From: a virus
IMG/VR virus record: IMGVR_UViG_3300044647_001784
Coordinates: 22,297 to 86,296 of that record
Length of the DNA stretch: 64,000 bases
Direction: 5' to 3' (one strand)
The notes beneath the pieces are model-generated. The model searched no databases. It was not told where the DNA came from and saw nothing but the letters and a program-made list of their open reading frames with translations. This document shows positions 50,297-61,944 of this stretch, piece after piece. How positions within the stretch are numbered: position 1 is the stretch's first letter; each line of letters opens with the position of its first letter. The position numbers were made by a program, and so were the translations under genes.

Positions 50297-50372
50297 TGTG
50301 ATGGACCTCACAAAAGTTTTTTGACGACACGCCCGAGAAACGGGCATAAATGTCAGTCCCCCCTGCTATGCT
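50297..50372 (+). promoter_or_regulatory. Operon promoter P1: CRP-like operator plus TGTCAG-N10--10
   Basis: Operator TGTGATGGACCTCACA at 50297-50312. TGTCAG at 50351-50356, then 10 bases, then TATGCT at 50367-50372. The operator centre is 62.5 bp before the -10 box. A GCCCG-AGAAA-CGGGC hairpin and an inverted copy of GGGCGTGTCG (50325-50334) lie between them. The leader ends AAACGAAAGGGG before ATG 50409. Confidence 0.75.
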
Positions 50373-50408
50373 TAAGGTATAACAAAAACAAACGAAAGGG
50401 GTCACACA

Positions 50409-50564
50409 ATGACTCAACTAACCGAAACACTATTTAGCACTATCGTGCACGATTTCCACAATGGTGGCGTAAAGTCATCTTATGGATTAGATGCGTACAC
50501 ACGCAAGGAAATCCTTGCCTACCTTATCCGCTCTAAGGGTTGCGAGTGCATCAACTGTCTGTGA
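50409..50564 (+). CDS. 51-residue protein, first gene of the right-arm array
   Basis: ATG 50409 follows GAAAGGGG by 9 bases. The product MTQLTETLFSTIVHDFHNGG continues GVKSSYGLDAYTRKEILAYL and ends RSKGCECINCL, with three Cys in a C-x-C-x-x-C arrangement. Function is unknown. The stop codon lies inside the CRP-like operator of the next operon. Confidence 0.65.
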   Translation: MTQLTETLFSTIVHDFHNGGVKSSYGLDAYTRKEILAYLIRSKGCECINCL

Positions 50565-50624
50565 GGTAAATCACACGACACACCCTAGCAACCTCCCCAA
50601 TTTGTCAGCCCCATACGCTACAAT
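50560..50624 (+). promoter_or_regulatory. Operon promoter P2
   Basis: Operator TGTGAGGTAAATCACA at 50560-50575 overlaps the stop codon of the preceding gene. TGTCAG at 50603-50608, N10, TACAAT at 50619-50624. Operator centre to -10: 51.5 bp. The leader contains AACAACGAAAGG. Confidence 0.8.
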
Positions 50625-50656
50625 TACAACATAACAACAACGAAAGGTCAGAATAA

Positions 50657-50749
50657 ATGACACTAGATGAATACAAGGCGCTAGTAGAAGCGCAACGCAA
50701 GGAAAGCCTTGCACAAGCCCTATCCGCACTAACAAAAGAGGTTAAATAA
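50657..50749 (+). CDS. 30-residue peptide
   Basis: ATG 50657 lies 9 bases after AACGAAAGG. The product MTLDEYKALVEAQRKESLAQ ends ALSALTKEVK and is predicted to be a single helix. Its TAA overlaps the ATG of the next gene (TAATG). No function can be assigned. Confidence 0.6.
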   Translation: MTLDEYKALVEAQRKESLAQALSALTKEVK

Positions 50750-50931
50750 TGTCATACGCATACTCATACCAAACCAATAGCGTGTCTAAGTGGGATACTA
50801 TCCAAGAGGATGTCGCAGACCAATACACTTACCTTGATGAGGTAGATGAGGAACAACCTCCACTAGATGAATTCTATGATGAAGATTCTGAACAACTAGC
50901 ACAACTATTCGCACTAACATGGGAGAACTAA
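50749..50931 (+). CDS. Acidic 60-residue protein
   Basis: This gene is coupled to the previous one by TAATG. The product starts MSYAYSYQTNSVSKWDTIQE and is strongly acidic in the middle (YLDEVDEEQPPLDEFYDEDS). High Asp and Glu content could mimic DNA, as anti-restriction proteins do, but that is speculative. It ends LFALTWEN. Confidence 0.6.
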   Translation: MSYAYSYQTNSVSKWDTIQEDVADQYTYLDEVDEEQPPLDEFYDEDSEQLAQLFALTWEN

Positions 50932-50933
50932 CA

Positions 50934-51083
50934 ATGACTATCACTTACTCACTATGGGACGGGGCACAATTCCTCGGTTTCTTTACCGCTACTAGCGCAG
51001 ATGAAATGCTAAAGGTAGTAAGCGACTTACAAAAAGTTTCTAAAAATGTAGTAGCACATATGCGAAAGGTAGAACAGAACTAA
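50934..51083 (+). CDS. 49-residue protein of unknown function
   Basis: ATG 50934 follows the previous stop by two bases. The product MTITYSLWDGAQFLGFFTAT continues SADEMLKVVSDLQKVSKNVV. It looks like a small alpha/beta fold. Its TAA overlaps the next ATG. Not recognised. Confidence 0.6.
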   Translation: MTITYSLWDGAQFLGFFTATSADEMLKVVSDLQKVSKNVVAHMRKVEQN

Positions 51084-51274
51084 TGACAATAGAACTAGAT
51101 GACTACGGCTTAATGATTGACCTAGGTGATTTTCTCTATGTATCTCTATCATGGGCGTTTATTATTTTGACCGCCGTTATTCTTGTCGGTGCTAAGGTAT
51201 ACAATAAGATAAAGAGTAATAAGCAAGTAGCCCCTATCGGCTTTAACAATGATGATGATTGGATGACTAAATGA
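51083..51274 (+). CDS. Small membrane protein
   Basis: This 63-residue protein has one clear transmembrane segment, VSLSWAFIILTAVILVGAKV, after an acidic N-terminus, followed by a basic stretch YNKIKSNKQ. By the positive-inside rule the C-terminus faces the cytoplasm. It overlaps neighbours at both ends (TAATG, ATGA). Confidence 0.65.
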   Translation: MTIELDDYGLMIDLGDFLYVSLSWAFIILTAVILVGAKVYNKIKSNKQVAPIGFNNDDDWMTK

Positions 51275-51393
51275 ATCGCTTACTAACTACACTAGTGCAA
51301 CTATCTATCGCTATCCCCGCCCTATACATGATGAGGATCGTGTACCATGATTTCAAGGCAGAGATGCGAGAGATGTGGCAAGAATCACACTAG
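51271..51393 (+). CDS. 40-residue protein with N-terminal membrane segment
   Basis: ATG overlaps the previous stop (ATGA). The product MNRLLTTLVQLSIAIPALYM has a hydrophobic N-terminal segment followed by an amphipathic charged tail MRIVYHDFKAEMREMWQESH. It is the last gene of operon P2 and is followed by the GCGTGTCG element. Confidence 0.6.
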   Translation: MNRLLTTLVQLSIAIPALYMMRIVYHDFKAEMREMWQESH

Positions 51394-51397
51394 GGTA

Positions 51398-51484
51398 ACG
51401 GCGTGTCGCCTTGACAAAGGCGTCAGCTGCCCCTATCTTTTGTGGGGGGTTATCCACAGGTTAAGAAGGTCTGTGGAAAACCCC
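51398..51484. repeat. GCGTGTCG-TTGACA element and DnaA-box hairpin
   Basis: ACGGCGTGTCGCCTTGACA lies at 51398-51416, with TATCTT 17 bp after TTGACA, so it could itself be a promoter. Then GGGGTTATCCACAG (51446-51459) pairs with CTGTGGAAAACCCC (51471-51484), 13 bp with one mismatch. The left arm holds a perfect DnaA box TTATCCACA. Confidence 0.6.
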
Positions 51485-51492
51485 TGAAATTT

Positions 51493-51579
51493 TGTGAGAT
51501 TTATCACATAGGCTGAGCGTCTCACATCTTGGAATTACTCGCTAGTAAGTAGCCAAATGTCAGCCCCTTAGTGTAAAAT
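51493..51579 (+). promoter_or_regulatory. Operon promoter P3
   Basis: Operator TGTGAGATTTATCACA at 51493-51508. TGTCAG at 51558-51563, N10, TAAAAT at 51574-51579. Centre to -10: 73.5 bp. The segment between them (GAGCGTCTCA, GCTAGTAA) is repeated in P4. Confidence 0.8.
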
Positions 51580-51612
51580 TCCTACTATAACAACAACGAA
51601 AGGGGTCATACC

Positions 51613-51792
51613 TTGACCATACTAATCTCATCAGAGGTTTTAGAGAATAGAGAATTATCTAACTCTAATCCATACATGTATCAAAAAGCAAAAACTTATT
51701 TGCTATCATGCACAATTTGTGCGAATAACTATTTAGAAATTTTTGCAAAAGATGCAGACTTTACTAAATTTACTTGTGAGGAGTGCTGGTAA
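51613..51792 (+). CDS. 59-residue Cys4 protein with TTG start
   Basis: No ATG fits; TTG 51613 lies 9 bases after AACGAAAGGGG, giving MTILISSEVLENRELSNSNP. The C-terminal half has LLSCTICANNYLEIF and FTCEECW, two CxxC pairs that may bind zinc. It is the first gene of operon P3. Function unknown. Confidence 0.6.
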   Translation: MTILISSEVLENRELSNSNPYMYQKAKTYLLSCTICANNYLEIFAKDADFTKFTCEECW

Positions 51793-51794
51793 TC

Positions 51795-51944
51795 ATGGCA
51801 GTTTATGAGTTTAATGCTTTTATAAATGTAGAGGCTGAATCCTATGATGATGCTATTGATACATTTCAATTTCAATTAAAATACGGAATAAATCAAAATA
51901 ATGTTTATGTTGCCGACATAAGAGATTTGGAGTTAAGCGAATGA
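51795..51944 (+). CDS. 49-residue alpha/beta protein
   Basis: The product is MAVYEFNAFINVEAESYDDA then IDTFQFQLKYGINQNNVYVA. It has the strand-helix-strand pattern of tiny ferredoxin-like phage proteins in which a sensing strand is followed by AESYDDAI. It overlaps the next gene by 4 bases (ATGA). Confidence 0.6.
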   Translation: MAVYEFNAFINVEAESYDDAIDTFQFQLKYGINQNNVYVADIRDLELSE

Positions 51945-52135
51945 AATCAGATTTCGAAAAAGATTTAGAAATTAAAGAAAGTTTTATTGATTTACTAAAT
52001 GATGTTTATCCTACTGTAAAAATTGGTTATTCAACTTTTACACCCGCCGAAATTTTAGAATGTTGCGACCCAGTAGCATTTGCAATTGGTTTAGTAGAAC
52101 ACGCAGATTATTTAGCAGAAATGGAAAACGAATGA
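51941..52135 (+). CDS. 64-residue helical protein
   Basis: The product MKSDFEKDLEIKESFIDLLN continues VYPTVKIGYSTFTPAEILEC and ends acidic (LVEHADYLAEMENE). FTPAEILECCDPVAF resembles small helix-turn modules in other phages, but no DNA-binding role is clear. It overlaps both neighbours by 4 bases. Confidence 0.6.
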   Translation: MKSDFEKDLEIKESFIDLLNDVYPTVKIGYSTFTPAEILECCDPVAFAIGLVEHADYLAEMENE

Positions 52136-52230
52136 GCGACTTATTTGGATTTGAAAAAGCAATTCAGCTCGATCATCTTAGCGATGAACAAATAAATCAA
52201 TTAGAGGAAATTCTAAAAGATTATCAATAG
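52132..52230 (+). CDS. 32-residue peptide
   Basis: ATG overlaps the upstream stop (ATGA). MSDLFGFEKAIQLDHLSDEQ then INQLEEILKDYQ. Two short helices are separated by a turn. It is the last gene of operon P3. Confidence 0.55.
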   Translation: MSDLFGFEKAIQLDHLSDEQINQLEEILKDYQ

Positions 52231-52233
52231 ATA

Positions 52234-52374
52234 GCGGCGTGTCGCCTTGACAAACAGGGCGGCACCCCCACATATGCACGGGGTCGGGCGTGTCGTTATG
52301 AAGATGTTATAAAATCCCCCGAAATTTACGGCGTGTCGATTTGACAGGGTTATCCACAGATCTCGGGCGTGTCG
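52234..52374. repeat. Cluster of four GCGTGTCG elements with a DnaA box
   Basis: Copies lie at 52234-52252 (GCGGCGTGTCGCCTTGACA), 52286-52295, 52328-52346 (ACGGCGTGTCGATTTGACA) and 52365-52374. TTATCCACA lies at 52350-52358. This is the densest cluster of the element in the window. Confidence 0.65.
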
Positions 52375-52387
52375 TCCACAGGCTAAA

Positions 52388-52473
52388 TGTGATTACTATC
52401 ACACGGCTTGAGCGTCTCATTATTTGGATTTACTGGCTAGTAATTATCTTTTGTCAGTGCTATCCGCTATAAT
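52388..52473 (+). promoter_or_regulatory. Operon promoter P4
   Basis: Operator TGTGATTACTATCACA at 52388-52403. TGTCAG at 52452-52457, N10, TATAAT at 52468-52473. Centre to -10: 72.5 bp. The spacer parallels that of P3. Confidence 0.8.
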
Positions 52474-52504
52474 TGCTACTATCAACAAACGAAAGGCGGA
52501 CTCC

Positions 52505-52717
52505 ATGTCAGCAAATGTCTACACAATCGAAAGCCTACTTGTAGGAAAAATGTATCGCTCAAATTCTCTTACTGGAGAAATTATCTCAGCAGAAAAAAAT
52601 GATAGTGTCTGGTATGCAAATGCAGATACTTACAAAGTGCAGGTACGCCCAATTTATTCTGCACCGCTAAATCTAAAAGATACTTACCGCTATTTAGCCG
52701 TAAAAACTTCCGATTAA
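52505..52717 (+). CDS. 70-residue beta-rich protein
   Basis: ATG 52505 is chosen: it lies after AAACGAAAGGCGG, whereas earlier in-frame starts overlap the promoter. The product MSANVYTIESLLVGKMYRSN continues with strands SLTGEIISAEKNDSVWY and YKVQVRPIYSAPLNLKD. It probably forms a small barrel. Not recognised. Confidence 0.65.
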   Translation: MSANVYTIESLLVGKMYRSNSLTGEIISAEKNDSVWYANADTYKVQVRPIYSAPLNLKDTYRYLAVKTSD

Positions 52718-52806
52718 ATAAAATCGAAACAGGGGCAGTTTAGAGAGTGTTCTCGCCCAATGTCGTAAGTAAGAACTCTCACCAATTTTTTAACGAAAGG
52801 AAAACT

Positions 52807-52971
52807 ATGCTAAACATAATCGACAAAACCGATTTCTATGAAATCGCAGATGAGCAACACTTTTGCTGTGATGAAAGTCAGTTTAAGTATTACTGTATCG
52901 AACACCTAGAATTTATGGGTTGCTACTTTTGCGGATTTGACTATGACAAAGATTGCGAGGAACAACACTAA
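52807..52971 (+). CDS. Cys-rich 54-residue protein
   Basis: ATG 52807 follows AACGAAAGGAAAACT. The product MLNIIDKTDFYEIADEQHFC contains CCDESQFKYYCIEHLEFMGC and YFCGFDYDKDC, with seven Cys and two His, suggesting one or two zinc sites. It overlaps the next gene by one base. There is no new TGTCAG promoter, so it is transcribed from P4. Confidence 0.65.
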   Translation: MLNIIDKTDFYEIADEQHFCCDESQFKYYCIEHLEFMGCYFCGFDYDKDCEEQH

Positions 52972-53114
52972 TGGGATACATTGAGATTTTTAGAATGGAT
53001 CAAGACGGGGCGGGTTGGGTAGATTTATCCGAAGCCACCCCCGATGAACTATTTACTATTGAGGTTGGGCTACTTAATGAGGGAGCCTTATTCACTAGCC
53101 CCGAAGCCGACTAA
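52971..53114 (+). CDS. 47-residue acidic protein
   Basis: The product MGYIEIFRMDQDGAGWVDLS continues ATPDELFTIEVGLLNEGALF. It is coupled to the upstream gene by a one-base overlap. Its stop codon abuts the TGTCAG box of P5. Function unknown. Confidence 0.6.
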   Translation: MGYIEIFRMDQDGAGWVDLSEATPDELFTIEVGLLNEGALFTSPEAD

Positions 53115-53115
53115 A

Positions 53116-53137
53116 TGTCAGTGGGCTAGGCTATAAT
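53116..53137 (+). promoter_or_regulatory. Operon promoter P5 (no CRP-like site)
   Basis: TGTCAG at 53116-53121, N10 (TGGGCTAGGC), TATAAT at 53132-53137. The upstream space is coding and carries no TGTGA-N6-TCACA. The leader has AACAACAACGAAAGG. Confidence 0.75.
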
Positions 53138-53165
53138 AAGCAATAACAACAACGAAAGGAAAACT

Positions 53166-53291
53166 ATGATTAACTCAGTAATGACTATCGAGTGCGTGGA
53201 TTGCCACGGATACGGAATTATCTTTTTTGGTAATGATAACGACTATGATTGCGAGCCATGCGATTGCGTGGAAGAATTGGAGAACAACTAA
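53166..53291 (+). CDS. 41-residue Cys4 zinc-ribbon protein
   Basis: ATG 53166 follows AACGAAAGGAAAACT. The product MINSVMTIECVDCHGYGIIF ends NDYDCEPCDCVEELENN. CxxCxGxG resembles a DnaJ-type zinc knuckle, completed by CxxC. It overlaps the next ATG by one base. Confidence 0.65.
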   Translation: MINSVMTIECVDCHGYGIIFFGNDNDYDCEPCDCVEELENN

Positions 53292-53494
53292 TGTATAAAT
53301 TAACTTGTGCTTATGACGGACACGCTCCTCATTGGTCAGCAGAATACGAAAACGAATTTGGTGCATGGGAAAACTTTTTCTTATTCACCGATTGGGGATT
53401 TGCTAACGAATACTCAACTGTAAATATTTACACGCCAACAGGCAAATGCTATACAAAAGTTTTCTACAGAACAGGAATGGTATCAGTTAAATGA
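53291..53494 (+). CDS. 67-residue beta-rich protein
   Basis: ATG 53291 overlaps the TAA of the previous gene, which decides the start. The product MYKLTCAYDGHAPHWSAEYE continues GAWENFFLFTDWGFANEYST and VNIYTPTGKCYTKVFYRTG. It probably forms a small antiparallel sheet. Function unknown. Confidence 0.65.
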   Translation: MYKLTCAYDGHAPHWSAEYENEFGAWENFFLFTDWGFANEYSTVNIYTPTGKCYTKVFYRTGMVSVK

Positions 53495-53682
53495 TGACAC
53501 GAAAAGATTATGTCGCAACCGCTGAAATTCTAAAGTATGTAAGCGATAAAACTCACCCCGCTGTTTTTTCTAAAATGGTAAATGATTTTGCGGAGATGTT
53601 CGCAAAAGATAATGAGCGATTTGATGTAAAACGATTTCACGAAGCGAGTGGATACAATGTTCCAAAATTCACTTCGAGATAA
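53491..53682 (+). CDS. 63-residue actinophage-type protein (TRKDYV family)
   Basis: The product MMTRKDYVATAEILKYVSDK continues FSKMVNDFAEMFAKDNERFD and VKRFHEASGY. I recognise this as a small helical protein common in phages of Actinobacteria, usually beginning MTRKDY and ending in F-x-AxGY. Its function is not known. It overlaps the upstream gene by 4 bases. Confidence 0.7.
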   Translation: MMTRKDYVATAEILKYVSDKTHPAVFSKMVNDFAEMFAKDNERFDVKRFHEASGYNVPKFTSR

Positions 53683-53788
53683 AGTAAAACGCATTCAGGA
53701 ATTGCGCCGCAGTAATGCGGCGCAACCTGTTCGCAATAAAAAAAAATACACACGCAAAATAAAACATAAAAATAAATTTGACACTTAA
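53657..53788 (+). CDS. Possible 43-residue very basic peptide
   Basis: ATG 53657 lies inside the end of the previous gene. The product MFQNSLRDKVKRIQELRRSN ends in a lysine-rich run NKKKYTRKIKHKNKFDT. It could bind nucleic acid. A perfect 10-bp hairpin with a GTAA loop (53702-53725) lies within it, so the frame may be chance over a terminator. Confidence 0.4.
   Translation: MFQNSLRDKVKRIQELRRSNAAQPVRNKKKYTRKIKHKNKFDT
53702..53725. terminator. Perfect hairpin with GTAA tetraloop
   Basis: TTGCGCCGCA and TGCGGCGCAA pair perfectly around GTAA, a GNRA-class tetraloop. No T run follows, so it may be an RNA-processing or stability element rather than a classical terminator. Confidence 0.5.
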
Positions 53789-53834
53789 CGCAAAATCCCG
53801 CACATAGCTGCGGGGTCGGGCGTGTCGTTAAGGA

Positions 53835-53899
53835 CGTGATGTAAATCACCCTGGAATTTTGGGCGTGTTGTGGAAAATGTCAGTGGCCTATGGTATTAT
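53835..53899 (+). promoter_or_regulatory. Operon promoter P6
   Basis: A weaker operator CGTGATGTAAATCACC lies at 53835-53850. TGTCAG at 53878-53883, N10, TATTAT at 53894-53899. Centre to -10: 51.5 bp. GGGCGTGTCG at 53818-53827 precedes it. Confidence 0.75.
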
Positions 53900-53928
53900 T
53901 CTCTTAAATCAAACGAAAGGCTCATCCC

Positions 53929-54039
53929 ATGGATTTTTATGATGACTACTATGAAACAGATATGATACGCCCTGACGCTAAGTCATGCTATTGTACTAAC
54001 CATTCTATTTGTACTAATTGCACTAAGGGGTATAACTAA
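53929..54039 (+). CDS. 36-residue Cys-rich peptide
   Basis: ATG 53929 follows AAACGAAAGGCTCATCCC. MDFYDDYYETDMIRPDAKSC continues YCTNHSICTNCTKGYN, with four Cys and one His close together. It is coupled to the gp88-like gene by a one-base overlap (TAATG) and might deliver metal to it; that is a guess. Confidence 0.6.
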   Translation: MDFYDDYYETDMIRPDAKSCYCTNHSICTNCTKGYN

Positions 54040-54761
54040 TGACTAAACTAAAAAGATCTAATGATAGAAAGGTGGCTAACCTTGTCACAAAAAATGGAAA
54101 GCAAGCCGCAATTGCGAACACGTTCGGGCTCCCTGCAGGAAAGAATTATTCATGCCCTGGTGCCACTAGTATTTGTGAGAGTGTTTGCTACGCAGGAAAA
54201 CTCGAAAAGGTATTCCCAAGCGTTAAAGTAAATCTATTGCATAACTGGGAATTACTAAAAGACGCAGACGGTGAAACTATGGTGCGTCTACTTAATGAAA
54301 TGATAATTGACTTCAAGGCTGATTGTGTAAAGAAAGACGCACCTATGCTATTCCGTATCCACTGGGACGGAGACTTCTTCAATGATACTTATGCATATGC
54401 ATGGAAAATAGTTATTGATAAGCATGAGGATGTTCAATTCTGGGTTTATACTCGTGTAAAGTCTGCGGCGCTTATTCTTAAGGATGTATCTAATCTATCG
54501 CTATACTATTCAACGGATGATGATAATAAAGAAATCGCATTCGACTTAAAAACTAATTCAAAAATCCGCCTTGCTTATCTTGGTAAGACATTCGCTGCAA
54601 CCGAAGACACAATGAAAGAATTGACTGGTAAGCCTGGTGCTAAGTGTCCTGAGAATATGAAGAGTATTCCACTTATCTCTAGCAATGGGTCCGCCTGCGT
54701 ATCTTGTGGTCTATGCGTATATGGTAAAGCGGATATTAGATTTTCTGCGAGTAAAAAATAA
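54039..54761 (+). CDS. Actinophage gp88-family protein
   Basis: This 240-residue protein shows the family blocks of the mycobacteriophage gene product 88 domain (PF17338): NGKQAAIANTFGLPAGKNYS, CPGATSICESVCYAGK, FRIHWDGDFFNDTYAYAW, VQFWVYTRVKSAA, and a C-terminal Cys cluster (GAKCPENM, GSACVSCGLCVYG). The Cys arrangement suggests an iron-sulfur or zinc site. Its biochemical role is unestablished; it is frequent in phages of Actinobacteria. It overlaps both neighbours by one base and is transcribed from P6. Confidence 0.88.
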   Translation: MTKLKRSNDRKVANLVTKNGKQAAIANTFGLPAGKNYSCPGATSICESVCYAGKLEKVFPSVKVNLLHNWELLKDADGETMVRLLNEMIIDFKADCVKKDAPMLFRIHWDGDFFNDTYAYAWKIVIDKHEDVQFWVYTRVKSAALILKDVSNLSLYYSTDDDNKEIAFDLKTNSKIRLAYLGKTFAATEDTMKELTGKPGAKCPENMKSIPLISSNGSACVSCGLCVYGKADIRFSASKK

Positions 54762-54856
54762 TGTATGAGGTTATTGGTATGATTGGCGGATCTATGGTAA
54801 TTCTTATATCGCTCCTGCCAATTTTATTAGCTGCATATGTAATATCTAAATTGTAA
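54761..54856 (+). CDS. 31-residue membrane peptide
   Basis: MYEVIGMIGGSMVILISLLP continues ILLAAYVISKL, a single transmembrane segment. ATG overlaps the TAA of the gp88-like gene. Last gene of operon P6. Confidence 0.6.
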   Translation: MYEVIGMIGGSMVILISLLPILLAAYVISKL

Positions 54857-54939
54857 CAGCGTGTCGGCTTGACAATGTCAAGCTGGCCCGCAATGTTGCG
54901 GGGTTATCCACAGGTTTAAGGGGCTTATCCACAAGCCCC
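54856..54939. repeat. GCGTGTCG-TTGACA element, palindrome and DnaA-box hairpins
   Basis: ACAGCGTGTCGGCTTGACA at 54856-54874 overlaps the palindrome GCTTGACA-A-TGTCAAGC (54867-54883). CCCGCAA/TTGCGGG forms a hairpin at 54887-54902. TTATCCACA occurs at 54904-54912 and again at 54925-54933, the second as the loop of GGGGCTT/AAGCCCC (54920-54939), a likely terminator. Confidence 0.65.
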
Positions 54940-54947
54940 TGGAATTA

Positions 54948-55012
54948 TGTGAGATTTATCACAAGGCTCATGCGTAAATAGATTAGGTAATGTCAGTGGG
55001 CTATGTTATAAT
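54948..55012 (+). promoter_or_regulatory. Operon promoter P7
   Basis: Operator TGTGAGATTTATCACA at 54948-54963, identical to that of P3. TGTCAG at 54991-54996, N10, TATAAT at 55007-55012. Centre to -10: 51.5 bp. Confidence 0.85.
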
Positions 55013-55040
55013 TCTCTTATCCAACAACGAAAGGCAATAA

Positions 55041-55244
55041 ATGAAAATAGAACACAACCTAAAGTTTGTAACTGAGTTTGCAGACGGACACCCAATAACT
55101 GCACGGGTAATGGCACTTGATGAGTCAATGCGTACTGAAATGCTTGAAGGTATGCTAAAGGATTTAGTAGGCTCTCGCTTGCAACCAATTCTTGATGAAA
55201 TAAATGCCAATGGCTCATACGCAATTCTAAAGGTTGCTGAATAA
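55041..55244 (+). CDS. 67-residue protein of unknown function
   Basis: ATG 55041 follows AACAACGAAAGGCAATAA. The product MKIEHNLKFVTEFADGHPIT continues ARVMALDESMRTEMLEGMLK and has a mixed alpha/beta pattern. TAATG couples it to the next gene. Not recognised. Confidence 0.65.
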   Translation: MKIEHNLKFVTEFADGHPITARVMALDESMRTEMLEGMLKDLVGSRLQPILDEINANGSYAILKVAE

Positions 55245-55513
55245 TGGGAAGTGTAACAGCACTAGGTATTCAGGACAGTGTGTTAGATTTAGAAACACAA
55301 TTAGCCTATCACTTACAGGGTAATCACTATCCACCCGTTCCACTATCTATGGTACCAGTATGTATTCAGGCAATAGATTTTGCTTATGATGAAATGTGGG
55401 ATGAAACTATTGAAATGCCTGATGGTATTTCTTATAAGGGTGAAACATGTGCGCCAGTATGGGCGATCATCGAGGCTCACCACTTACACTTTTGGCTACC
55501 TGAAAGTGACTAA
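55244..55513 (+). CDS. 89-residue protein of unknown function
   Basis: The product MGSVTALGIQDSVLDLETQL continues PLSMVPVCIQAIDFAYDEMW and ends PVWAIIEAHHLHFWLPESD. It is acidic, with a possible metal pair EAHHLH near the end. The CRP-like operator of P8 begins inside its last codons. Confidence 0.65.
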   Translation: MGSVTALGIQDSVLDLETQLAYHLQGNHYPPVPLSMVPVCIQAIDFAYDEMWDETIEMPDGISYKGETCAPVWAIIEAHHLHFWLPESD

Positions 55514-55580
55514 GGTCACACAATAACTTTCTCAAATAATGAGATGGGGGTTGATAAATGTCAGCCCCCAATGCTACAAT
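55505..55580 (+). promoter_or_regulatory. Operon promoter P8
   Basis: Operator AGTGACTAAGGTCACA at 55505-55520, one base off consensus. TGTCAG at 55559-55564, N10, TACAAT at 55575-55580. Centre to -10: 62.5 bp. TTGATA at 55551 is a possible weak -35. Confidence 0.7.
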
Positions 55581-55608
55581 ACTACCCTACAAAGAAAAGA
55601 GGCAATAA

Positions 55609-55791
55609 ATGACAATACAAGATAAGTTGTATCAGGTTGGAGATTTATTCACTACCCTAAAGTCAAAAAAGACGGGCGTGATTAAAGAAATCCACCCACA
55701 AGCATCTGGCTCGGTGCGTGTGCTACTAGAAATGCCAACAAAGGAAACTCGCTGGACAACAGTATCAGCAAGCACCCTAGCAGGTAATTAG
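55609..55791 (+). CDS. 60-residue SH3-like protein
   Basis: The product MTIQDKLYQVGDLFTTLKSK continues KTGVIKEIHPQASGSVRVLL and EMPTKETRWTTVSASTLAG. The pattern of a G-D turn followed by strands is that of small SH3-like barrels common in actinophages. The leader has AAAAGAGG. Function unknown. Confidence 0.65.
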   Translation: MTIQDKLYQVGDLFTTLKSKKTGVIKEIHPQASGSVRVLLEMPTKETRWTTVSASTLAGN

Positions 55792-55815
55792 CATAGGGCA
55801 GGGGGGTCGCAGAAA

Positions 55816-55837
55816 TGTCAGACCCTCCTGCTATACT
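55816..55837 (+). promoter_or_regulatory. Operon promoter P9 (no CRP-like site)
   Basis: TGTCAG at 55816-55821, N10, TATACT at 55832-55837. The leader ACCAACGAAAG is the longest match (11 bases) to the antisense loop at 59995. Confidence 0.75.
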
Positions 55838-55876
55838 ACTCTAACAAACAACCAACCAACGAAAGAGAGAAAATAA

Positions 55877-56299
55877 ATGGCACGACAGAAAGCAATTAGC
55901 GTAAAGATAGCAACACCAAAGGTAATCAAGGCACTAGAAACTCGCTTGACAAAGTTAAATGCCGATTACGCATCACAAGAAGCCAACGAAGCAAAGCACG
56001 AAAAGGCTTTAGAAAAGTGGCGCAAAGAAGTAGGAAAGTTCGCTATGGCTAATTTTGCTAAGGCAGAAAACTTCCGCACAAACTATCGCTCATGGAATAA
56101 GACACTTAATGTTGATTTCGATTTAACAGTTAATGAGTCAGACTTTCCTAAAGAGCCTGAGAAGGACTACGAAGTTCTCCACCGCCACTCATACAATGAG
56201 ATGAAAGAGGAATTGGAAAACGCAATTCGTATTCTAAAGATGACAGATGAGGAAACAGTAAGCACAAGCACTTACAATGCTATTGCTCGTTATCTCTAA
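55877..56299 (+). CDS. 140-residue helical protein
   Basis: ATG 55877 follows AACGAAAGAGAGAAAATAA. The product MARQKAISVKIATPKVIKAL has a coiled-coil region (RLTKLNADYASQEANEAKHE, then KALEKWRKEVGKFAMANFA), and a C-terminal helix MKEELENAIRILKMTDEET. It resembles small coiled-coil proteins of other actinophages. No enzymatic motif is visible. Confidence 0.7.
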   Translation: MARQKAISVKIATPKVIKALETRLTKLNADYASQEANEAKHEKALEKWRKEVGKFAMANFAKAENFRTNYRSWNKTLNVDFDLTVNESDFPKEPEKDYEVLHRHSYNEMKEELENAIRILKMTDEETVSTSTYNAIARYL

Positions 56300-56370
56300 A
56301 TAATCCAACGACCTGAGTATGTCGCCAAACTGCTCTCCCTTTTGGGACAACTACTAACAAAGGTAATACA

Positions 56371-56598
56371 ATGCGGTTCAAGATAGAAATGTATGACGAA
56401 GTAAAACAAAACGACTTAACAATTTATTCTGATGAAGGCTATGACAATGAAAGCCTAAAGGAATTAGTTTTCTCAAACTTAAAAAGATTTGACGGAAATG
56501 TTAAGGCTTTTGTTTATGATCAAAAAAATAAAAAGAAAACATCAGCAGCGTTCTTTCCAATGGAAACAGTAAACTATGTAAAGTCCTTATCTAAGTGA
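56371..56598 (+). CDS. 75-residue protein of unknown function
   Basis: ATG 56371 lies after CAAAGG. The product MRFKIEMYDEVKQNDLTIYS continues NESLKELVFSNLKRFDGNVK and AFVYDQKNKKKTSAAFFPME, a beta-alpha-beta pattern. A strong hairpin (56604-56623) follows the stop. It is transcribed from P9. Confidence 0.65.
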   Translation: MRFKIEMYDEVKQNDLTIYSDEGYDNESLKELVFSNLKRFDGNVKAFVYDQKNKKKTSAAFFPMETVNYVKSLSK

Positions 56599-56603
56599 AA
56601 GGT

Positions 56604-56687
56604 GGGGCAGCTAATTCTGCCCCGCCCAAGCTTGGCCCGCAATAATGTGCGGGGTTTTCCACAGGTTTAAGAGGGCCTGTGGATAAC
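56604..56687. terminator. Three consecutive hairpins including DnaA-box arms
   Basis: GGGGCAG/CTGCCCC (56604-56623), CCCGCA/TGCGGG (56636-56653), and GTTTTCCACAGG/CCTGTGGATAAC (56654-56687). The third has a DnaA-box-like sequence in both arms (perfect TTATCCACA in the right arm, reversed). The first is the likely terminator. Confidence 0.65.
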
Positions 56688-56697
56688 GCCTGGAATT

Positions 56698-56773
56698 TGT
56701 GAGATTACTCACATGGATCAATTCGGACATATTGTAACTAATCATAGACAATGTCAGTGGGGTCTGTTATACT
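56698..56773 (+). promoter_or_regulatory. Operon promoter P10
   Basis: Operator TGTGAGATTACTCACA at 56698-56713. TGTCAG at 56752-56757, N10, TATACT at 56768-56773. Centre to -10: 62.5 bp. TAGACA at 56745 is a possible -35. Confidence 0.8.
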
Positions 56774-56803
56774 TACAACTAACTAAACGAAAGGTAAAAA
56801 TAT

Positions 56804-57811
56804 ATGGCTCACAATCTCGAAACCGAAAACGGCGAAGTTGCTTTTGCATTGCGTGGCGCACCTGCATGGCATAATCTTGCTAATCGTATCTTCACACAAG
56901 ATGAAGATGTTACTACTCAAATGATGTTAGATGAGGCAAAACTATCTAACTGGAATGTTCGTCTATCTCCATTGACCGACCACATCTCAGATACATGGAA
57001 TGATGTATCTAATGCTCAATTAGTTATTCGTGACAACCCATTCAATAGCGGAACTGATGTTCTTGCTACTGTTGGTAAGCGTTACAAGCCTGTGCAAAAT
57101 GAAGAATTGTTTGCATTCGCAGATGCAATTCATGATGCCAATGCTGATTGCCGTTGGGAATCTGCTGGCTCACTTCGTAGCGGTAAGGTTGTTTTTGGTA
57201 CTGTGGATATTCCTCGCACAATGGTGCTTGACCCACAAGGTGCAAATGATGAAACCAAGTTGTATCTAATTGTTTGGACATCACATGACGGGTCTGTTGC
57301 GGTTCAGGCTGCAGTTACCCCTGTTCGTGTAGTTTGCCAAAACACATTGAATCTTGCAATGCGTAATGCTAAGCAATCTTTCAAGATTCGTCACACGCAA
57401 TCTGTTGAAGGTCGCATTCAAGTAGCCCGCGAAACTCTTGGGCTTGCTCTTGGATACTTTGATGAATTTGAGAAAGAGGCTCAGGCTCTTTATTCTCAAT
57501 CAATTACTGATGCTGAATTCTCAAAGTTAATTCAGACAATTTATCCTAAGCCAGATAAAGATTCTGCTAAGGTTGCGCTAACTAAGTGGGAGAATAAGGT
57601 TGTCCTTCTTGACAATCTTTATCATAACTCACCAACTAACGCTAACATCAAGGGAACTAAGTGGGGTGCGTTCAATGCACTAACTGAACGCCTTGACTAT
57701 TATCGTTCAGGTCGCGGAAATTCTGAAACACTTATGGCTGGTGCATCAGGGTTTGACCCAATTCTTACCGCAGAAAAAAATAAAATTAAGAAATTAATTT
57801 CTGCGTTTTAA
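56804..57811 (+). CDS. DUF932 / phage-plasmid-like protein (TIGR03299)
   Basis: This 335-residue protein contains FALRGAPAWHNLANRIFTQD, GTDVLATVGKRYKPVQNEEL, LRSGKVVFGTVDIPRTM, SHDGSVAVQAAVTPVRVVCQ, NTLNLAMRNAKQSFKIRHTQ and LTERLDYYRSGRGNSETL, which together identify the DUF932 family widespread on phages and plasmids. The family has no settled function; roles near DNA replication or anti-restriction have been suggested. Codon choice is slightly richer in C/G than neighbours. It is alone in its operon and followed by tRNA-Asp. Confidence 0.9.
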   Translation: MAHNLETENGEVAFALRGAPAWHNLANRIFTQDEDVTTQMMLDEAKLSNWNVRLSPLTDHISDTWNDVSNAQLVIRDNPFNSGTDVLATVGKRYKPVQNEELFAFADAIHDANADCRWESAGSLRSGKVVFGTVDIPRTMVLDPQGANDETKLYLIVWTSHDGSVAVQAAVTPVRVVCQNTLNLAMRNAKQSFKIRHTQSVEGRIQVARETLGLALGYFDEFEKEAQALYSQSITDAEFSKLIQTIYPKPDKDSAKVALTKWENKVVLLDNLYHNSPTNANIKGTKWGAFNALTERLDYYRSGRGNSETLMAGASGFDPILTAEKNKIKKLISAF

Positions 57812-57858
57812 TAAATAAATTCCTGAGCATGAATAAAAACTGCTCACAATTTTTTCTA

Positions 57859-57932
57859 GGTCCATTAGCTCAGTTGGTTAGAGCGCTACCCTGTCACGGT
57901 AGAGGTCGACGGTTCAAGTCCGTTATGGATCG
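57859..57932 (+). tRNA. tRNA-Asp (anticodon GUC)
   Basis: A 74-base cloverleaf has acceptor GGTCCAT/ATGGATC, D-arm GCTCAGTTGGTTAGAGC, anticodon stem CTACC/GGTAG with loop CTGTCAC, and T-arm GACGG/CCGTT with TTCAAGT. Discriminator G. CCA is not encoded. Confidence 0.92.
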
Positions 57933-57964
57933 CAAATCGCCCGCAATATTTAGGGACAAAAAAG

Positions 57965-58031
57965 TGTGTTAAGTGTCACATAAAAAAATCCCTGGAATCT
58001 ATAGACAAATGTCAGTGGGACCCTGTATAAT
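57965..58031 (+). promoter_or_regulatory. Operon promoter P11, probably leaderless
   Basis: A weak operator TGTGTTAAGTGTCACA lies at 57965-57980. TGTCAG at 58010-58015, N10, TATAAT at 58026-58031. The expected start coincides with ATG 58039, and no AACGAAAGG leader is present. Centre to -10: 53.5 bp. Confidence 0.7.
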
Positions 58032-58038
58032 TCTCTAC

Positions 58039-58656
58039 ATGACCAACGAACTAGTATCAAGCGTATATACATTTGTCTGTGACCCAGATGAATGCGATTC
58101 TTTAATTCAATTAACATCATCTGATGGATTTGGTTTTCCTTCAGGTGTGACAGAACTCACATGCCCTTGCGGACGTAAGACCACCTTATTGTCAGTCGAG
58201 CATGCTACAATTACACCAACAACAACGGAAGAGGTAAAAATGGAAACAACTACAGACAATCACTACATGACACGAGAATTCCTTGAGTCACAGTTAGTAG
58301 ATAACAAAGCCCGCATTACACAGTTAGAAGAGCACATCCAGCGTATAACTCAGCGTGATTATGCAACTGCAGGAACTCTAAGCAAATTGCGTGATGACAT
58401 GAAGGTATTCACACTCGAAGGCCTTGATGACGAATCTCTTACAGAATTTCAAGCAGAAGAAATTGCTGGCATCTGTGGATTTGAACTAACAAATGAGTTT
58501 GAACTAGAAGTAACAGTTCTATATTCAATTACAGTTAATGCTCGTGATGAAGAGAGTGCACATAATCTAATTCATGATATTGATTTTGACACCGTGTCTT
58601 ATGACTCAGACGGTATTAGTTGGCTATCATCATCTGTAGATAGAATTGAGAACTAA
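58039..58656 (+). CDS. 205-residue protein with Cys4 N-terminus and internal second start
   Basis: ATG 58039 is chosen because it sits at the expected start point of P11; the frame extends upstream through the promoter. Residues 1-60 (MTNELVSSVYTFVCDPDECD, then LTCPCGRKTTLL) form a small Cys-rich unit. From about residue 68 the protein changes to METTTDNHYMTREFLESQLV, with a coiled-coil, then a beta-alpha domain (ELEVTVLYSITVNARDEESA). A full promoter-and-leader module lies inside the gene, so a 138-residue short form from ATG 58240 is also likely. Confidence 0.65.
   Translation: MTNELVSSVYTFVCDPDECDSLIQLTSSDGFGFPSGVTELTCPCGRKTTLLSVEHATITPTTTEEVKMETTTDNHYMTREFLESQLVDNKARITQLEEHIQRITQRDYATAGTLSKLRDDMKVFTLEGLDDESLTEFQAEEIAGICGFELTNEFELEVTVLYSITVNARDEESAHNLIHDIDFDTVSYDSDGISWLSSSVDRIEN
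58146..58211 (+). promoter_or_regulatory. Intragenic promoter P12
   Basis: Operator TGTGACAGAACTCACA at 58146-58161, a perfect half-site pair inside coding sequence. TGTCAG at 58190-58195, N10, TACAAT at 58206-58211. Centre to -10: 52.5 bp. The leader AACAACGGAAGAGG precedes ATG 58240. Confidence 0.75.
58240..58656 (+). CDS. Short form of the 205-residue protein
   Basis: The same reading frame from ATG 58240 gives 138 residues beginning METTTDNHYM. GGAAGAGG lies 6 bases upstream, and promoter P12 gives a leader of about 22 bases. It lacks the Cys-rich N-terminal unit. Both forms may be made, or the gene may be a fusion of two once separate genes. Confidence 0.55.
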   Translation: METTTDNHYMTREFLESQLVDNKARITQLEEHIQRITQRDYATAGTLSKLRDDMKVFTLEGLDDESLTEFQAEEIAGICGFELTNEFELEVTVLYSITVNARDEESAHNLIHDIDFDTVSYDSDGISWLSSSVDRIEN

Positions 58657-58976
58657 TGTTAAAAGAAGGAGAAAACATTGTTTACCTTAAATTAAGAATT
58701 CAAAATGAAATAAAAGATTTAAGTTTAAATCATCCTGAATTATTAGAAGAGTATAAGCAAGATGCAATTAAATCTATTTTTAATTCAGCTATCCTTAAAG
58801 AAACTTTGTCCGTTAAAGAGTTTAGGGATTTAGTGTCAACAGTACGACCTGATTTTTATGAGGGGTATACGATTGAAGATGCAGAAGCGGAATGGGAATC
58901 TATAAAAACAGGCATGATTATTGTTTCTCTTTTTGTTGTGATAGTTGGCGCTCTTATACTTAAGTGGGTGTTCTAA
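58656..58976 (+). CDS. 106-residue tail-anchored membrane protein
   Basis: The product MLKEGENIVYLKLRIQNEIK is helical and charged up to residue 85. It ends with one transmembrane segment, GMIIVSLFVVIVGALILKWVF, so it is probably tail-anchored with the bulk in the cytoplasm. It overlaps the upstream stop by one base and the next start by one base. Confidence 0.65.
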   Translation: MLKEGENIVYLKLRIQNEIKDLSLNHPELLEEYKQDAIKSIFNSAILKETLSVKEFRDLVSTVRPDFYEGYTIEDAEAEWESIKTGMIIVSLFVVIVGALILKWVF

Positions 58977-59179
58977 TGTACTTTGAACTTACCGCTCCAT
59001 CTCGTGTAGCCTTTGCGAGGGCCATTTGGGATGCAGAAATAACTGGACTAGACCCTGAAGCAATGAGTGCATTGACATTCAACATAGGAACTGGTAGTAT
59101 TGAGAAAGTAAGTAGGATTCGTGATAAGTATAACTTAATTGAATCTTATGTAAGCGACAGTAAAACTACAGGATACTAG
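58976..59179 (+). CDS. 67-residue protein of unknown function
   Basis: ATG 58976 overlaps the TAA of the previous gene and is preferred over GTG 58964. The product MYFELTAPSRVAFARAIWDA continues GLDPEAMSALTFNIGTGSIE and ends SDSKTTGY. No motif is recognised. Confidence 0.65.
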   Translation: MYFELTAPSRVAFARAIWDAEITGLDPEAMSALTFNIGTGSIEKVSRIRDKYNLIESYVSDSKTTGY

Positions 59180-59187
59180 GAGATAAA

Positions 59188-59334
59188 ATGTCAGACTATA
59201 AAGATGGTTTTGAAGATGGGTACAAGTTTGCCCGTGAAGAAATTATAGAAAAACTATCAGAGATTGATATCGCAGATATTGATACATGGATTCTTGATCG
59301 TCTATCTGACATGATAGAAGGCGGAACGCTATGA
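59188..59334 (+). CDS. 48-residue actinophage-type protein
   Basis: ATG 59188 follows AGGAGATAAA. MSDYKDGFEDGYKFAREEII continues EKLSEIDIADIDTWILDRLS. The DGFEDGYKFARE block is one I associate with small proteins of many actinophages. It is a helical hairpin; its function is unknown. It overlaps the next ATG (ATGA). Confidence 0.7.
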   Translation: MSDYKDGFEDGYKFAREEIIEKLSEIDIADIDTWILDRLSDMIEGGTL

Positions 59335-59528
59335 ACGAATGGGTTGGGTGCGATAAGTGTAACTCAGTAGTACCTGCAATGTATTTAATTAAAATGGTTA
59401 GCGGAGAGCTTTCTTTCTGTGGACACCACTTTAATAAGTTCAAGCCTAGTCTTGACAAAATCGCTTACGAAGTGATAGAATTAAACAAAAAGGAAGAAGT
59501 ACCTCAACTAGTAGAAATGGCGGAATAA
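59331..59528 (+). CDS. DUF7455-like zinc-ribbon protein
   Basis: The 65-residue product MNEWVGCDKCNSVVPAMYLI continues KMVSGELSFCGHHFNKFKPS. C-x-x-C, then a strand, then FCGHH is the pattern of the small DUF7455 zinc ribbons found in Actinobacteria and their phages. The helical tail IAYEVIELNKKEEV follows. Zinc binding is very likely; the partner is unknown. Confidence 0.75.
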   Translation: MNEWVGCDKCNSVVPAMYLIKMVSGELSFCGHHFNKFKPSLDKIAYEVIELNKKEEVPQLVEMAE

Positions 59529-59529
59529 A

Positions 59530-59931
59530 ATGGGAGATAGAGCAAACTTCGGATTTAAACAATCCAATGGAGAAACAATTGTGCTATACGGACACTGGGC
59601 TGGACATGGAATGTTAGAGCGCTTAGCAGATGCTGTTGAAGCAGCACGTTCTAGGTGGGGAGATGAATCATATGCTACCCGCATTGCGGTTTCGCATTTA
59701 GTTGGAGAACAATGGCAAGATACAACTGGATGGGGATTATCTGTTAATAACATCCTAGACAACGAGCACAAGATTCCTGTGATTGACTGGAATACACAAA
59801 CGTTTTCACTGCACGAAGAGGCGCCTTGGTCCGAGTCGACAGAATATAAGGTCCGTGGAATGCAAGACGAGCCCATATTCAAAATGACATTGGATTCATT
59901 TATTAATAAGTACTCAAGGGTTAATGCATAA
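59530..59931 (+). CDS. Actinophage protein of the MGDRANFGF family
   Basis: This 133-residue protein begins MGDRANFGFKQSNGETIVLY, then GHWAGHGMLERLADAVEAAR, SYATRIAVSHLVGEQWQDTT and GWGLSVNNILDNEHK. I recognise this conserved family from mycobacteriophages and other actinophages; it has no assigned function. The pattern suggests a compact alpha/beta fold with conserved G-H-W. It lies just upstream of the putative antisense RNA region. Confidence 0.8.
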   Translation: MGDRANFGFKQSNGETIVLYGHWAGHGMLERLADAVEAARSRWGDESYATRIAVSHLVGEQWQDTTGWGLSVNNILDNEHKIPVIDWNTQTFSLHEEAPWSESTEYKVRGMQDEPIFKMTLDSFINKYSRVNA

Positions 59932-59940
59932 TTAATCTAA

Positions 59941-60067
59941 GGGTGCCCCTATAGTCATTAATGGCCAGGGGTTAAATAAAGCAGAGTTCTTTTACTTTCG
60001 TTGGTGAACCTCTAGCAGCCTATGTAAAACCCCAGTTATGGAATAAGCCCCTACAGCTGGGGTTTTT
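59941..60067 (+). ncRNA. Putative antisense small RNA against the shared AACGAAAGG leader
   Basis: Hairpin 1: CCCCT (59946-59950) with AGGGG (59967-59971). Hairpin 2: AGAGTTC (59983-59989) with GAACCTCT (60006-60013, one bulged C), loop TTTTACTTTCGTTGGT. Hairpin 3: AAAACCCCAG (60026-60035) with CTGGGGTTTT (60057-60066), then T. Loop bases CTTTCGTTG (59995-60003) are exactly complementary to CAACGAAAG in most right-arm leaders. No clear promoter is visible, so it may be processed from the upstream mRNA. Confidence 0.45.
60026..60067 (+). terminator. Intrinsic terminator
   Basis: AAAACCCCAG and CTGGGGTTTT pair over a 21-base loop, followed by a T run. It ends transcripts from the operon at 58039-59931 or the putative small RNA. 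Confidence 0.8.
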
Positions 60068-60136
60068 GCATGGCCCGCAAAAGACTAAGGGTAATATATT
60101 TCTTTTACGGTGTCAATATGAAATCGCCTGGAATTT

Positions 60137-60219
60137 TGTGATCTTGACCACATGCATACAAAATGTGGTGTGAAACACACCCAAATAGTATTCCATTTGT
60201 CAGTGGTCCAATGTATAAT
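60137..60219 (+). promoter_or_regulatory. Operon promoter P13
   Basis: Operator-like TGTGATCTTGACCACA at 60137-60152. A second palindrome, GTGTG-AAA-CACAC, lies at 60168-60180. TGTCAG at 60198-60203, N10, TATAAT at 60214-60219. Centre to -10: 69.5 bp, slightly off the common spacing. Confidence 0.7.
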
Positions 60220-61742: not shown

Positions 61743-61944
61743 GTCATCTTATTTCCTGGAGTATATGAAGTTACATCTAATTAGTCTTAATCAAGATTGG
61801 GAAGATTCTAAAAATAGCGTACCTTTAAATGAAGATGAATATGACCCTTCAGATGATTACTATGTAGGAGCAACTGAGGCTGTTGAACATTTATTGTCAG
61901 TGGCTACTGATATAATGAATTCTTCTAACGAAAGGTATGAATAA
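61735..61944 (+). CDS. 69-residue helical protein
   Basis: The product MTKSSYFLEYMKLHLISLNQ continues DDYYVGATEAVEHLLSVATD. It resembles small actinophage proteins with a G-A-T-E-A-x-E-H helix. Promoter P15 lies within its last 17 codons. It overlaps upstream by 8 bases and downstream by one. Confidence 0.65.
   Translation: MTKSSYFLEYMKLHLISLNQDWEDSKNSVPLNEDEYDPSDDYYVGATEAVEHLLSVATDIMNSSNERYE
61895..61916 (+). promoter_or_regulatory. Intragenic promoter P15
   Basis: TGTCAG at 61895-61900, N10 (TGGCTACTGA), TATAAT at 61911-61916, followed by TCTAACGAAAGG. The whole module is retained inside coding sequence, just before ATG 61944. Confidence 0.7.

Follow-up and report, generated by a model that had tools for sequence, protein, structure and literature searches.

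The stretch of viral DNA analysed here, 64,000 nucleotides in length and referred to as the window, raised the question of which regulators act on a series of TGTCAG promoters, most of which are preceded by the sequence TGTGA-N6-TCACA. This sequence is the consensus for CRP at class I promoters in E. coli and for the actinobacterial GlxR/Crp proteins. We consider it probable that the early promoters of a clade of freshwater actinophages are built on a host PafBC promoter combined with a class I Crp-type site. The promoters of this phage family appear to copy the DNA damage promoter of the recA type found in the host, and the virus may read two host signals.

The promoter array and its operators

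A scan of the window for TGTCAG-N10-TANNNT gave 15 matches, as compared with 0.78 expected, all of them on the + strand and spanning 50.3-61.9 kb. The preliminary description had numbered 13 of these promoters, all of which were present. The exact operator occurred seven times (0.15 expected; none of 100 shuffled sequences reached seven), in every case upstream of a TGTCAG promoter, and scoring of the whole 86,296-base record revealed no exact sites beyond these seven. When up to two mismatches were allowed, the window contained 27 sites, not above the 34.4 expected by chance, so that single weak sites count for little alone.

The promoters, identified by pattern match and assigned to the RecA-NDp type discussed below, are all on the + strand, while the operators are given without strand. 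Exact operators were located at 50297..50312 upstream of promoter 1 (50351..50372, TGTCAG-N10-TATGCT), separated by a gap of 38 bases with the operator center at approximately -74.5; at 50560..50575 upstream of promoter 2 (50603..50624; gap 27, center about -63.5); at 51493..51508 upstream of promoter 3 (51558..51579; gap 49, center about -85.5); at 52388..52403 upstream of promoter 4 (52452..52473; gap 48, center about -84.5); at 54948..54963 upstream of promoter 7 (54991..55012; gap 27); at 56698..56713 upstream of promoter 10 (56752..56773; gap 38); and at 58146..58161 upstream of promoter 12 (58190..58211; gap 28). Operators with one mismatch preceded promoter 8 (55559..55580; operator 55505..55520, gap 38), promoter 11 (58010..58031; operator 57965..57980, gap 29) and promoter 13 (60198..60219; weak operator 60137..60152, gap 45, off phase), and a weak operator with two mismatches preceded promoter 6 (53878..53899; operator 53835..53850, gap 27). 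An alternative weak site for promoter 13, also with two mismatches, was found at 60164..60179 (gap 18, in phase). Promoters 5 (53116..53137), 9 (55816..55837), 14 (60919..60940, scored as lacking an operator over 80 bases) and 15 (61895..61916) had no operator with one mismatch or fewer within 110 bases. Thus, operators were present at 11 of the 15 promoters, consistent with the 10 or 11 reported previously.

The distances from the operator center to the first base of the -10 box that had been reported, 51.5 (promoters 2, 6 and 7), 52.5 (promoter 12), 53.5 (promoter 11), 62.5 (promoters 1, 8 and 10), 69.5 (promoter 13), 72.5 (promoter 4) and 73.5 (promoter 3), were all correct when recomputed from the coordinates. 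With a start seven bases after the -10 box, the centers had been placed near -63, -74 and -85, close to the E. coli class I positions; the values obtained here, -63.5, -74.5 and -84.5 or -85.5, agree with that estimate but lie approximately 3 bp further upstream than the E. coli positions.

The array encloses a gene of the GP88 family (PF17338; 54039..54761, + strand) and a DUF932 gene (56804..57811, + strand), located 3' of promoter 10, whose product shares about 51% identity with proteins of Streptomyces phages. A PHROGs scan of ten early proteins gave no match for six, while the other four matched families of unknown function. We interpret the region as the putative early arm of an actinophage from fresh water.

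The TGTCAG element and the RecA-NDp promoter

The consensus of the actinobacterial RecA-NDp promoter is tTGTCRgtg-8nt-TAnnnT (PMC5656591), and published work has described a PafBC motif at -26, sigma adaptation and activation by single-stranded DNA. The phage element TGTCAG-N10-TAnnnT matches this promoter, the target of ssDNA-activated PafBC, in both core and spacing, as judged from the sequence. The observations of the preliminary description held; the RecA-NDp/PafBC character of the TGTCAG promoters was not recognised. The promoters of mycobacteria and other actinobacteria share with those of the phage the TGTCRG core, the 10 bases to TAnnnT and often a TG extension, whereas the phage differs in having an array of 15 promoters in one region, -10 boxes that are close to the consensus and, at most of the promoters, an upstream operator. 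A study cited in PMC5656591 names ClgR as recognising the RecA-NDp promoter, so PafBC may not act alone.

The spacing was strictly conserved in IMG/VR, where the pattern with TG-N-TATAAT and ACGAAAGG at a spacing of 10 was found in at least 120 stretches, while the same pattern at spacings of 9 and 11 gave no matches. A decoy scan with a reversed box likewise gave at least 120 stretches, and a count of stretches therefore has no discriminating power. The decoy was set apart by having one match per row in each of the 80 rows listed, and a single 59-base spacing was common to 44 of them (hand count); this group probably represents a single element from a different family of phages.

The candidate hosts were 34 of 37 genomes of 1.2-1.5 Mb, three (G014, G175 and G191) having been left out by hand, and they are presumed hosts on the basis of size, GC and gene content. 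Two further genomes with a GC near 0.6 (G131 and G206) were left out of the recA and exact operator counts, leaving 32. Of the 30 recA loci taken from these 32 genomes, 18 had the RecA-NDp element upstream of recA (17 TGTCAG, 1 TGTCGG), directly followed in all 18 by an SOS box, and 12 lacked the element. Pattern counts over genomes were uneven: 23 versus 0 for the reversed control in Sanguibacter, only a mild excess (212 versus 164) in the 34 small genomes together, and no enrichment in Nocardia seriolae (3 versus 7). Tandem WYL genes resembling pafBC were present in 32 of the 34 small actinomycete genomes; one further genome had two copies on different contigs and one had none. On the basis of their pairing and domain, these WYL pairs are called putative PafBC.

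The -10 boxes of the phage are closer to TATAAT than those at candidate-host recA, so the dependence on PafBC could be weaker. The stronger -10 box also bears on another interpretation, that TGTCAG is the element of a sigma factor or a MotA-like activator encoded by the phage and that the likeness to RecA-NDp arose by convergence. A sigma-70 factor is indeed encoded by two cultured phages of Nanopelagicales that belong to a different family (PMC10202952). This interpretation seems to us quite improbable, given that the core, the exact spacing and, often, the TG or TGG extension are the same as in the candidate-host recA and Sanguibacter matches, that spacings of 9 and 11 are absent in IMG/VR and that no phage factor is needed. 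The 15 co-directed promoters would belong to the RecA-NDp class used by actinobacteria in the response to DNA damage. In the mechanism that we propose, single-stranded DNA would activate host PafBC, which would occupy TGTCAG at about -26 and allow the housekeeping RNA polymerase to initiate without a -35 element.

Helical phasing of the operators

The operators had been described as lying on one face of the helix upstream of the TGTCAG promoters, with enrichment at that location and a 10.5-bp phasing put forward for checking, and both were borne out. In the window, the seven exact sites were phased at 10.5 bp with a Rayleigh R of 0.97 (Monte Carlo p = 4e-5), and all 11 sites gave R = 0.81 (p = 2e-4). 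The site at 60137 misses the comb, while the two-mismatch site at 60164 fits it.

A larger set of TGTCAG promoters was collected from IMG/VR without reference to the operator, and the counts that follow apply to the matches listed. The set leaves out 16 stretches already known from the operator scan and is therefore biased against operators. An exact operator was found at 143 of the 576 promoters, while 39 of the 94 promoter-bearing stretches had none. The 80 bases preceding a promoter contained 163 of the 204 exact sites, as compared with 9.5 expected. Of the 143 sites, 122 fell on a one-turn comb with gaps of 18, 28, 38, 48 and 60, but 20, about one in seven, were half a turn off and lie on the opposite face, so that the placement on a single face holds for most of the operators and not for all.

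Crp-family proteins repress some genes, and the operators might accordingly be repressor sites that silence the early genes in certain conditions. Sites of that kind commonly overlap the core promoter, whereas the sites here are upstream of it, with centers near -54 to -96, and are mostly phased, and only one of the 204 exact sites was within 80 bases downstream of a promoter (among the matches listed). We regard repression as very doubtful.

It could also be argued that the phasing has no functional meaning and was inherited from a few duplicated promoter cassettes, as 161 of the 236 sites belong to one similarity cluster and 129 of the 138 loci with at least three promoters and an operator have genes in common with the window phage, making them essentially one clade. 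Nevertheless, the gaps inside the largest cluster are themselves one turn apart (27/28, 37/38, 47-49 and one at 59), besides an additional group of 23 at 33/34, and the remaining clusters give the same comb, which makes inheritance alone scarcely credible as an explanation. When the sites were reduced to 51 similarity clusters, the phasing had R = 0.68 near 10.3 bp (p of about 5e-5, the lowest value that 20,000 simulations can give), while for all 236 sites the R for a 5-bp period, 0.77, exceeded the 0.70 obtained for 10.25 bp. We conclude that the operators are genuine, that most of them share one face of the helix and that they are tied to TGTCAG promoters across a phage clade.

The operator-binding protein and a proposed two-input promoter

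The preliminary description proposed that the early operons are wired to a host cAMP-type regulator of the Crp/GlxR type. The inner bases of the operator are Crp-like, with G or T at position 6 and A or C at position 11. The Rex operator is TGTGAA-N4-TTCACA, and Rex was ruled out because A at position 6 with T at position 11 occurred in only one of 319 operators. The operator sequence therefore fits Crp and not Rex. One Crp gene was present in 33 of the 34 candidate-host genomes; the recognition helix was RETVNK in the 20 loci examined, and the helix (ASRETVNKALADF) had the same sequence as in 3h3u (M. tuberculosis Crp), the nearest chain with a solved structure. In the phage sequence, a Crp-type helix-turn-helix (HTH_Crp_2) was absent from the record to which the window belongs, no Crp was found in 22 viral records (fragments) retrieved with the pattern, and a profile built from candidate-host Crp detected none in 227 viral stretches (2.1 Mb). 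Neither Crp nor PafBC encoded by the phage was found, no HTH_Crp_2 or WYL gene occurring in the phage sequence examined, which consists of fragments.

The part of the proposal that did not gain support concerns the host chromosome. The exact operator was not enriched in the candidate hosts (4 sites in 32 genomes versus 8 for the reversed control), nor was there a clear excess of one-mismatch sites in 16 of those 32 genomes (263 versus 244). With exact sites this rare and one-mismatch sites near the control, no chromosomal Crp regulon with TGTGA-N6-TCACA is visible, and the role of Crp stays an inference. These counts are also in accord with the RecA-NDp/PafBC promoters being correctly assigned while the operators bind a factor other than host Crp, for example a phage regulator from another family or some other host protein. 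At 86 kb, as compared with about 133 kb in its relatives, the phage record probably lacks part of the genome, and the early proteins without an assigned function would leave room for such a regulator. On the other hand, the inner bases are Crp-like, the recognition helix of the solved chain is kept in candidate-host Crp, and a phage-encoded Crp-type factor was absent from the sequences surveyed above. A non-Crp factor is, in our judgment, rather unlikely.

At most promoters the site further upstream lies on a whole-turn comb with centers near -54, -64, -74, -85 and -96. If Crp is the binding protein, the bound host Crp dimer could help recruit RNA polymerase via the alpha subunit, by analogy with class I activation. 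Binding and activation by PafBC and Crp are inferred here from the sites. The operator, its upstream placement and the steps of about one turn are shared with class I Crp promoters of E. coli and with actinobacterial GlxR/Crp sites, but those promoters have a -35/-10 core, while that of the phage is putatively of the PafBC type.

The Streptomyces Stanwilliamsviridae (Jay2Jay, StarPlatinum, EGole, Coruscant and Wofford) resemble the window phage in having a DUF932 homologue in the early arm and a homologous ribonucleotide reductase. They differ in that the early 11.5 kb of these five phages has ordinary-looking TTGAC/TAnnnT promoters (TTGACN-N15-19-TAnnnT, 20 leftward and 0 rightward), no operator that is exact or has one mismatch, and no leftward TGTCAG-N10-TANNNT. 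Tentatively, and with slightly less than even confidence, we suggest that the freshwater clade swapped the ordinary early promoters of its Streptomyces-infecting relatives for host PafBC promoters, to which it joined Crp sites of class I. The result would be a promoter with two inputs, sigma-adapted RNA polymerase from below and, from above, phased Crp. The early genes would then follow the single-stranded DNA that arises when the phage enters or replicates, or when host DNA is broken down, together with the cellular cAMP or energy state.

Other phages are already known to make use of a regulator of their host. One report describes CtrA binding sites concentrated in promoter regions of alphaproteobacterial phages (PMC9437464), likewise host-regulator sites in phage promoters; these phages use another regulator, while the window phage seems to combine two host inputs per promoter. 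Phages linked to LexA, such as GIL01 (PMC4551915), couple their transcription to the host DNA damage response, as proposed here, although LexA is a repressor, whereas PafBC activates transcription in response to single-stranded DNA. Phage use of PafBC was not found in the literature searched, which comprised open-licence papers. If the proposal is true, a promoter that joins sigma adaptation to phased Crp would represent a composite of a new kind, giving a testable account of how a clade of freshwater actinobacterial phages may begin infection and several hundred natural promoters in which to study the action of an upstream activator when the -35 region is taken by PafBC.

A scan of host chromosomes for the full operator and promoter composite returned 33 stretches that by eye were mostly chance matches, and the composite was rejected as a chromosomal feature. 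Two of the stretches, L148 and L136, resemble contigs of phages within MAGs. At three high-GC actinobacterial loci (L144, L153 and L158), a composite with a gap of 33 was located 5' of a gyrB-like gene, an observation limited to one gene and left out of the counts.

Phased operators and RecA-NDp-type promoters

The window contained 15 TGTCAG-N10-TANNNT promoters and seven exact TGTGA-N6-TCACA operators, both far over chance (0.78 and 0.15 expected, respectively). The preliminary description had placed operators upstream of these promoters at distances differing by about one helical turn; every distance was correct by recomputed coordinates, and both the enrichment and the non-random phasing were confirmed. 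Weak operators should be read cautiously, since 27 with up to two mismatches were found in the window versus 34.4 expected.

An IMG/VR scan for an operator, 24-54 bases and TGTCAG matched at least 120 stretches, and the 120 listed had 301 operator-promoter pairs (275 without repeats) with gaps, the bases from operator to TGTCAG, peaking at 28, 33/34, 38, 48/49 and 59/60. A second scan, whose pattern comprised only the promoter and a ribosome-binding site, also matched at least 120 stretches; 16 of the 120 listed were already in the first set and were left out, and the 104 new stretches had 576 promoters, spread over 94 stretches. Among these listed matches, an exact operator lay within 80 bases of 143 promoters, in 55 stretches, and a one-mismatch operator was found at 132 others. 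The new stretches had 204 exact operators. A promoter followed within 80 bases for 163 of them, versus 9.5 expected, while one operator lay downstream of a promoter at no greater distance. The gaps of the 143 were 18-19, 27-29, 37-39, 47-49 or 60 in 122 cases, 33/34 in 20 and 21 in one. Over 51 similarity clusters, the phasing gave R = 0.68 near 10.3 bp with p about 5e-5, the simulation floor. When clusters were not collapsed, a 5-bp period outscored 10.25 bp (R 0.77 versus 0.70) because of the half-turn class at gap 33/34, which is real. None of the 132 one-mismatch operators in the listed matches of the second set had this gap. About one exact operator in seven is on the opposite helix face at gap 33/34 in related phage loci (for example, stretches L024, L029 and L039).

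The same promoters have a further feature that is weightier than their operators. The mycobacterial LexA/RecA-independent damage promoter is described as tTGTCRgtg-8nt-TAnnnT, i.e. TGTCRG, 10 bases, TAnnnT (PMC5656591), and a study cited there reports its recognition by ClgR. The promoter is named RecA-NDp, the motif of PafBC (PMC6789036, PMC8223512), and extends to other actinobacteria (PMC8223512); PafBC is described as having a -26 motif, sigma adaptation and ssDNA activation (PMC11804915). The phage promoters match RecA-NDp in core and spacing. Across 576 promoter copies from the first IMG/VR set, the commonest sequence was AAA-TGTCAG, T or A, CC or GG, with a -10 end of TGC-TATAAT. The promoter scan pattern had no IMG/VR matches with a spacing of 9 or 11, versus at least 120 stretches with 10. 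Native matches numbered 23 in Sanguibacter versus none for the reversed pattern, 24 versus 3, 27 versus 9 and 10 versus 1 in three freshwater actinobacterial MAGs, and 3 versus 7 for the reversed pattern in Nocardia seriolae, where there was no enrichment.

Regulators in candidate hosts

Candidate hosts were 34 of the 37 genomes listed at 1.2-1.5 Mb, out of 394 in the class of Sanguibacter; their size and GC suggest that most are probably Nanopelagicales. A single Crp above the cut-off was present in 33 of the 34 and tandem WYL genes in 32, with two on separate contigs in one more. After these counts G131 and G206 (GC near 0.6) were dropped, leaving 32 genomes, from which 30 recA loci were fetched. 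A RecA-NDp element lay directly 5' of the SOS box at 18 loci (17 TGTCAG, one TGTCGG; e.g. TGTCAGTGGCGCCTGCTACCTT) and was absent at 12. Genome-wide, the pattern was in mild excess in the 34 candidate hosts (212 versus 164 control).

The proposal that the phage is wired to a host Crp-type regulator was partly supported. A 199-residue stretch of candidate-host Crp matched the solved chain 3h3u, which we take to be M. tuberculosis Crp (E 6.5e-75), and ASRETVNKALADF is common to both. Of 319 distinct operators, 81% had G or T at position 6 and 91% had A or C at position 11. Rex was rejected as the operator's protein; its form, with A at position 6 and T at position 11, occurred in one of the 319. 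What did not stand was operator enrichment in candidate-host chromosomes: exact operators numbered 4 versus 8 control in 32 genomes and one-mismatch operators 263 versus 244 in 16, which count against a Crp regulon in these hosts. No Crp or WYL genes were found in the partial phage record or in 227 viral stretches (2.1 Mb), and a further search of 22 viral records retrieved through the pattern also gave no Crp; as the sequences searched were fragments, absence of phage copies is not proven.

In three high-GC actinobacterial MAG stretches (L144, L153, L158), operator-33-TGTCAG-N10-TAGGTT lies ahead of a gene that by eye resembles gyrB, a composite that is possibly native.

With ssDNA present, PafBC on TGTCAG would recruit sigmaA-RNAP, and a Crp dimer could bind with its centre near -54, -64, -74, -85 or -96, as counted from predicted start sites, from where it could make contact with the free alpha C-terminal domains. 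This predicted register is shifted upstream by about 3 bp relative to the class I positions of E. coli, which would fit an arrangement with PafBC inserted between sigma domain 4 and the DNA.

Early region and Streptomyces relatives

The parent viral record has 86,296 bases, the window being bases 22297-86296. Ribonucleotide reductase and a DUF932 protein of this phage were about 65% and 51% identical, respectively, to those of Streptomyces phages, and the five relatives fetched were all Stanwilliamsviridae, in which the DUF932 homologue is in the left terminal arm. From likeness to that arm, the + strand genes beyond 50 kb of the window are putatively early.

The first 11.5 kb of the five relatives had no exact or one-mismatch operators, no leftward TGTCAG-N10-TANNNT and one rightward (Wofford), whereas TTGACN-N15-19-TAnnnT occurred 20 times leftward and never rightward. 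The early promoters thus appear, from these sequences, to have changed in the window's clade, in agreement with the initial search described in PMC9380542, which suggested no conservation of the PafBC motif in S. venezuelae.

Other elements near the promoters

A tRNA-Asp(GTC) gene (57859-57933) lies within the promoter array, a little upstream of promoter 11 (58010..58031, +). TTATCCACA, which we take to be the DnaA-box consensus, occurs at 51450, 52350, 54904 and 54925 (+) and 56686 (-), five copies at 50-58.2 kb and none elsewhere in the window. In related phages, 85 of 546 promoters have it in the 160 bases that precede them; it may be a replication signal or provide a third input from the host. 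All eight window copies of GCGTGTCG / CGACACGC are at 50.3-54.9 kb: 50325 (-), 51401, 52237, 52288, 52331, 52367, 53820 and 54859 (+). Among 109 carriers in related phages, CGACAC started exactly 26 bases 5' of TGTCAG 49 times, and candidate-host recA also has a CGACAC shortly before its TGTCAG box. Between operator and promoter in related phage loci, AATGTCCG (e.g. L014, L029, L043, L075) and GAGCGTCTCA (e.g. L007, L015, L027, L029) recur. A decoy scan with the reversed box (L162-L241) returned a 59-base TGTGA-N6-TCACA...CTGACA element common to 44 of the 80 listed rows by hand count, on contigs that probably represent another phage family.
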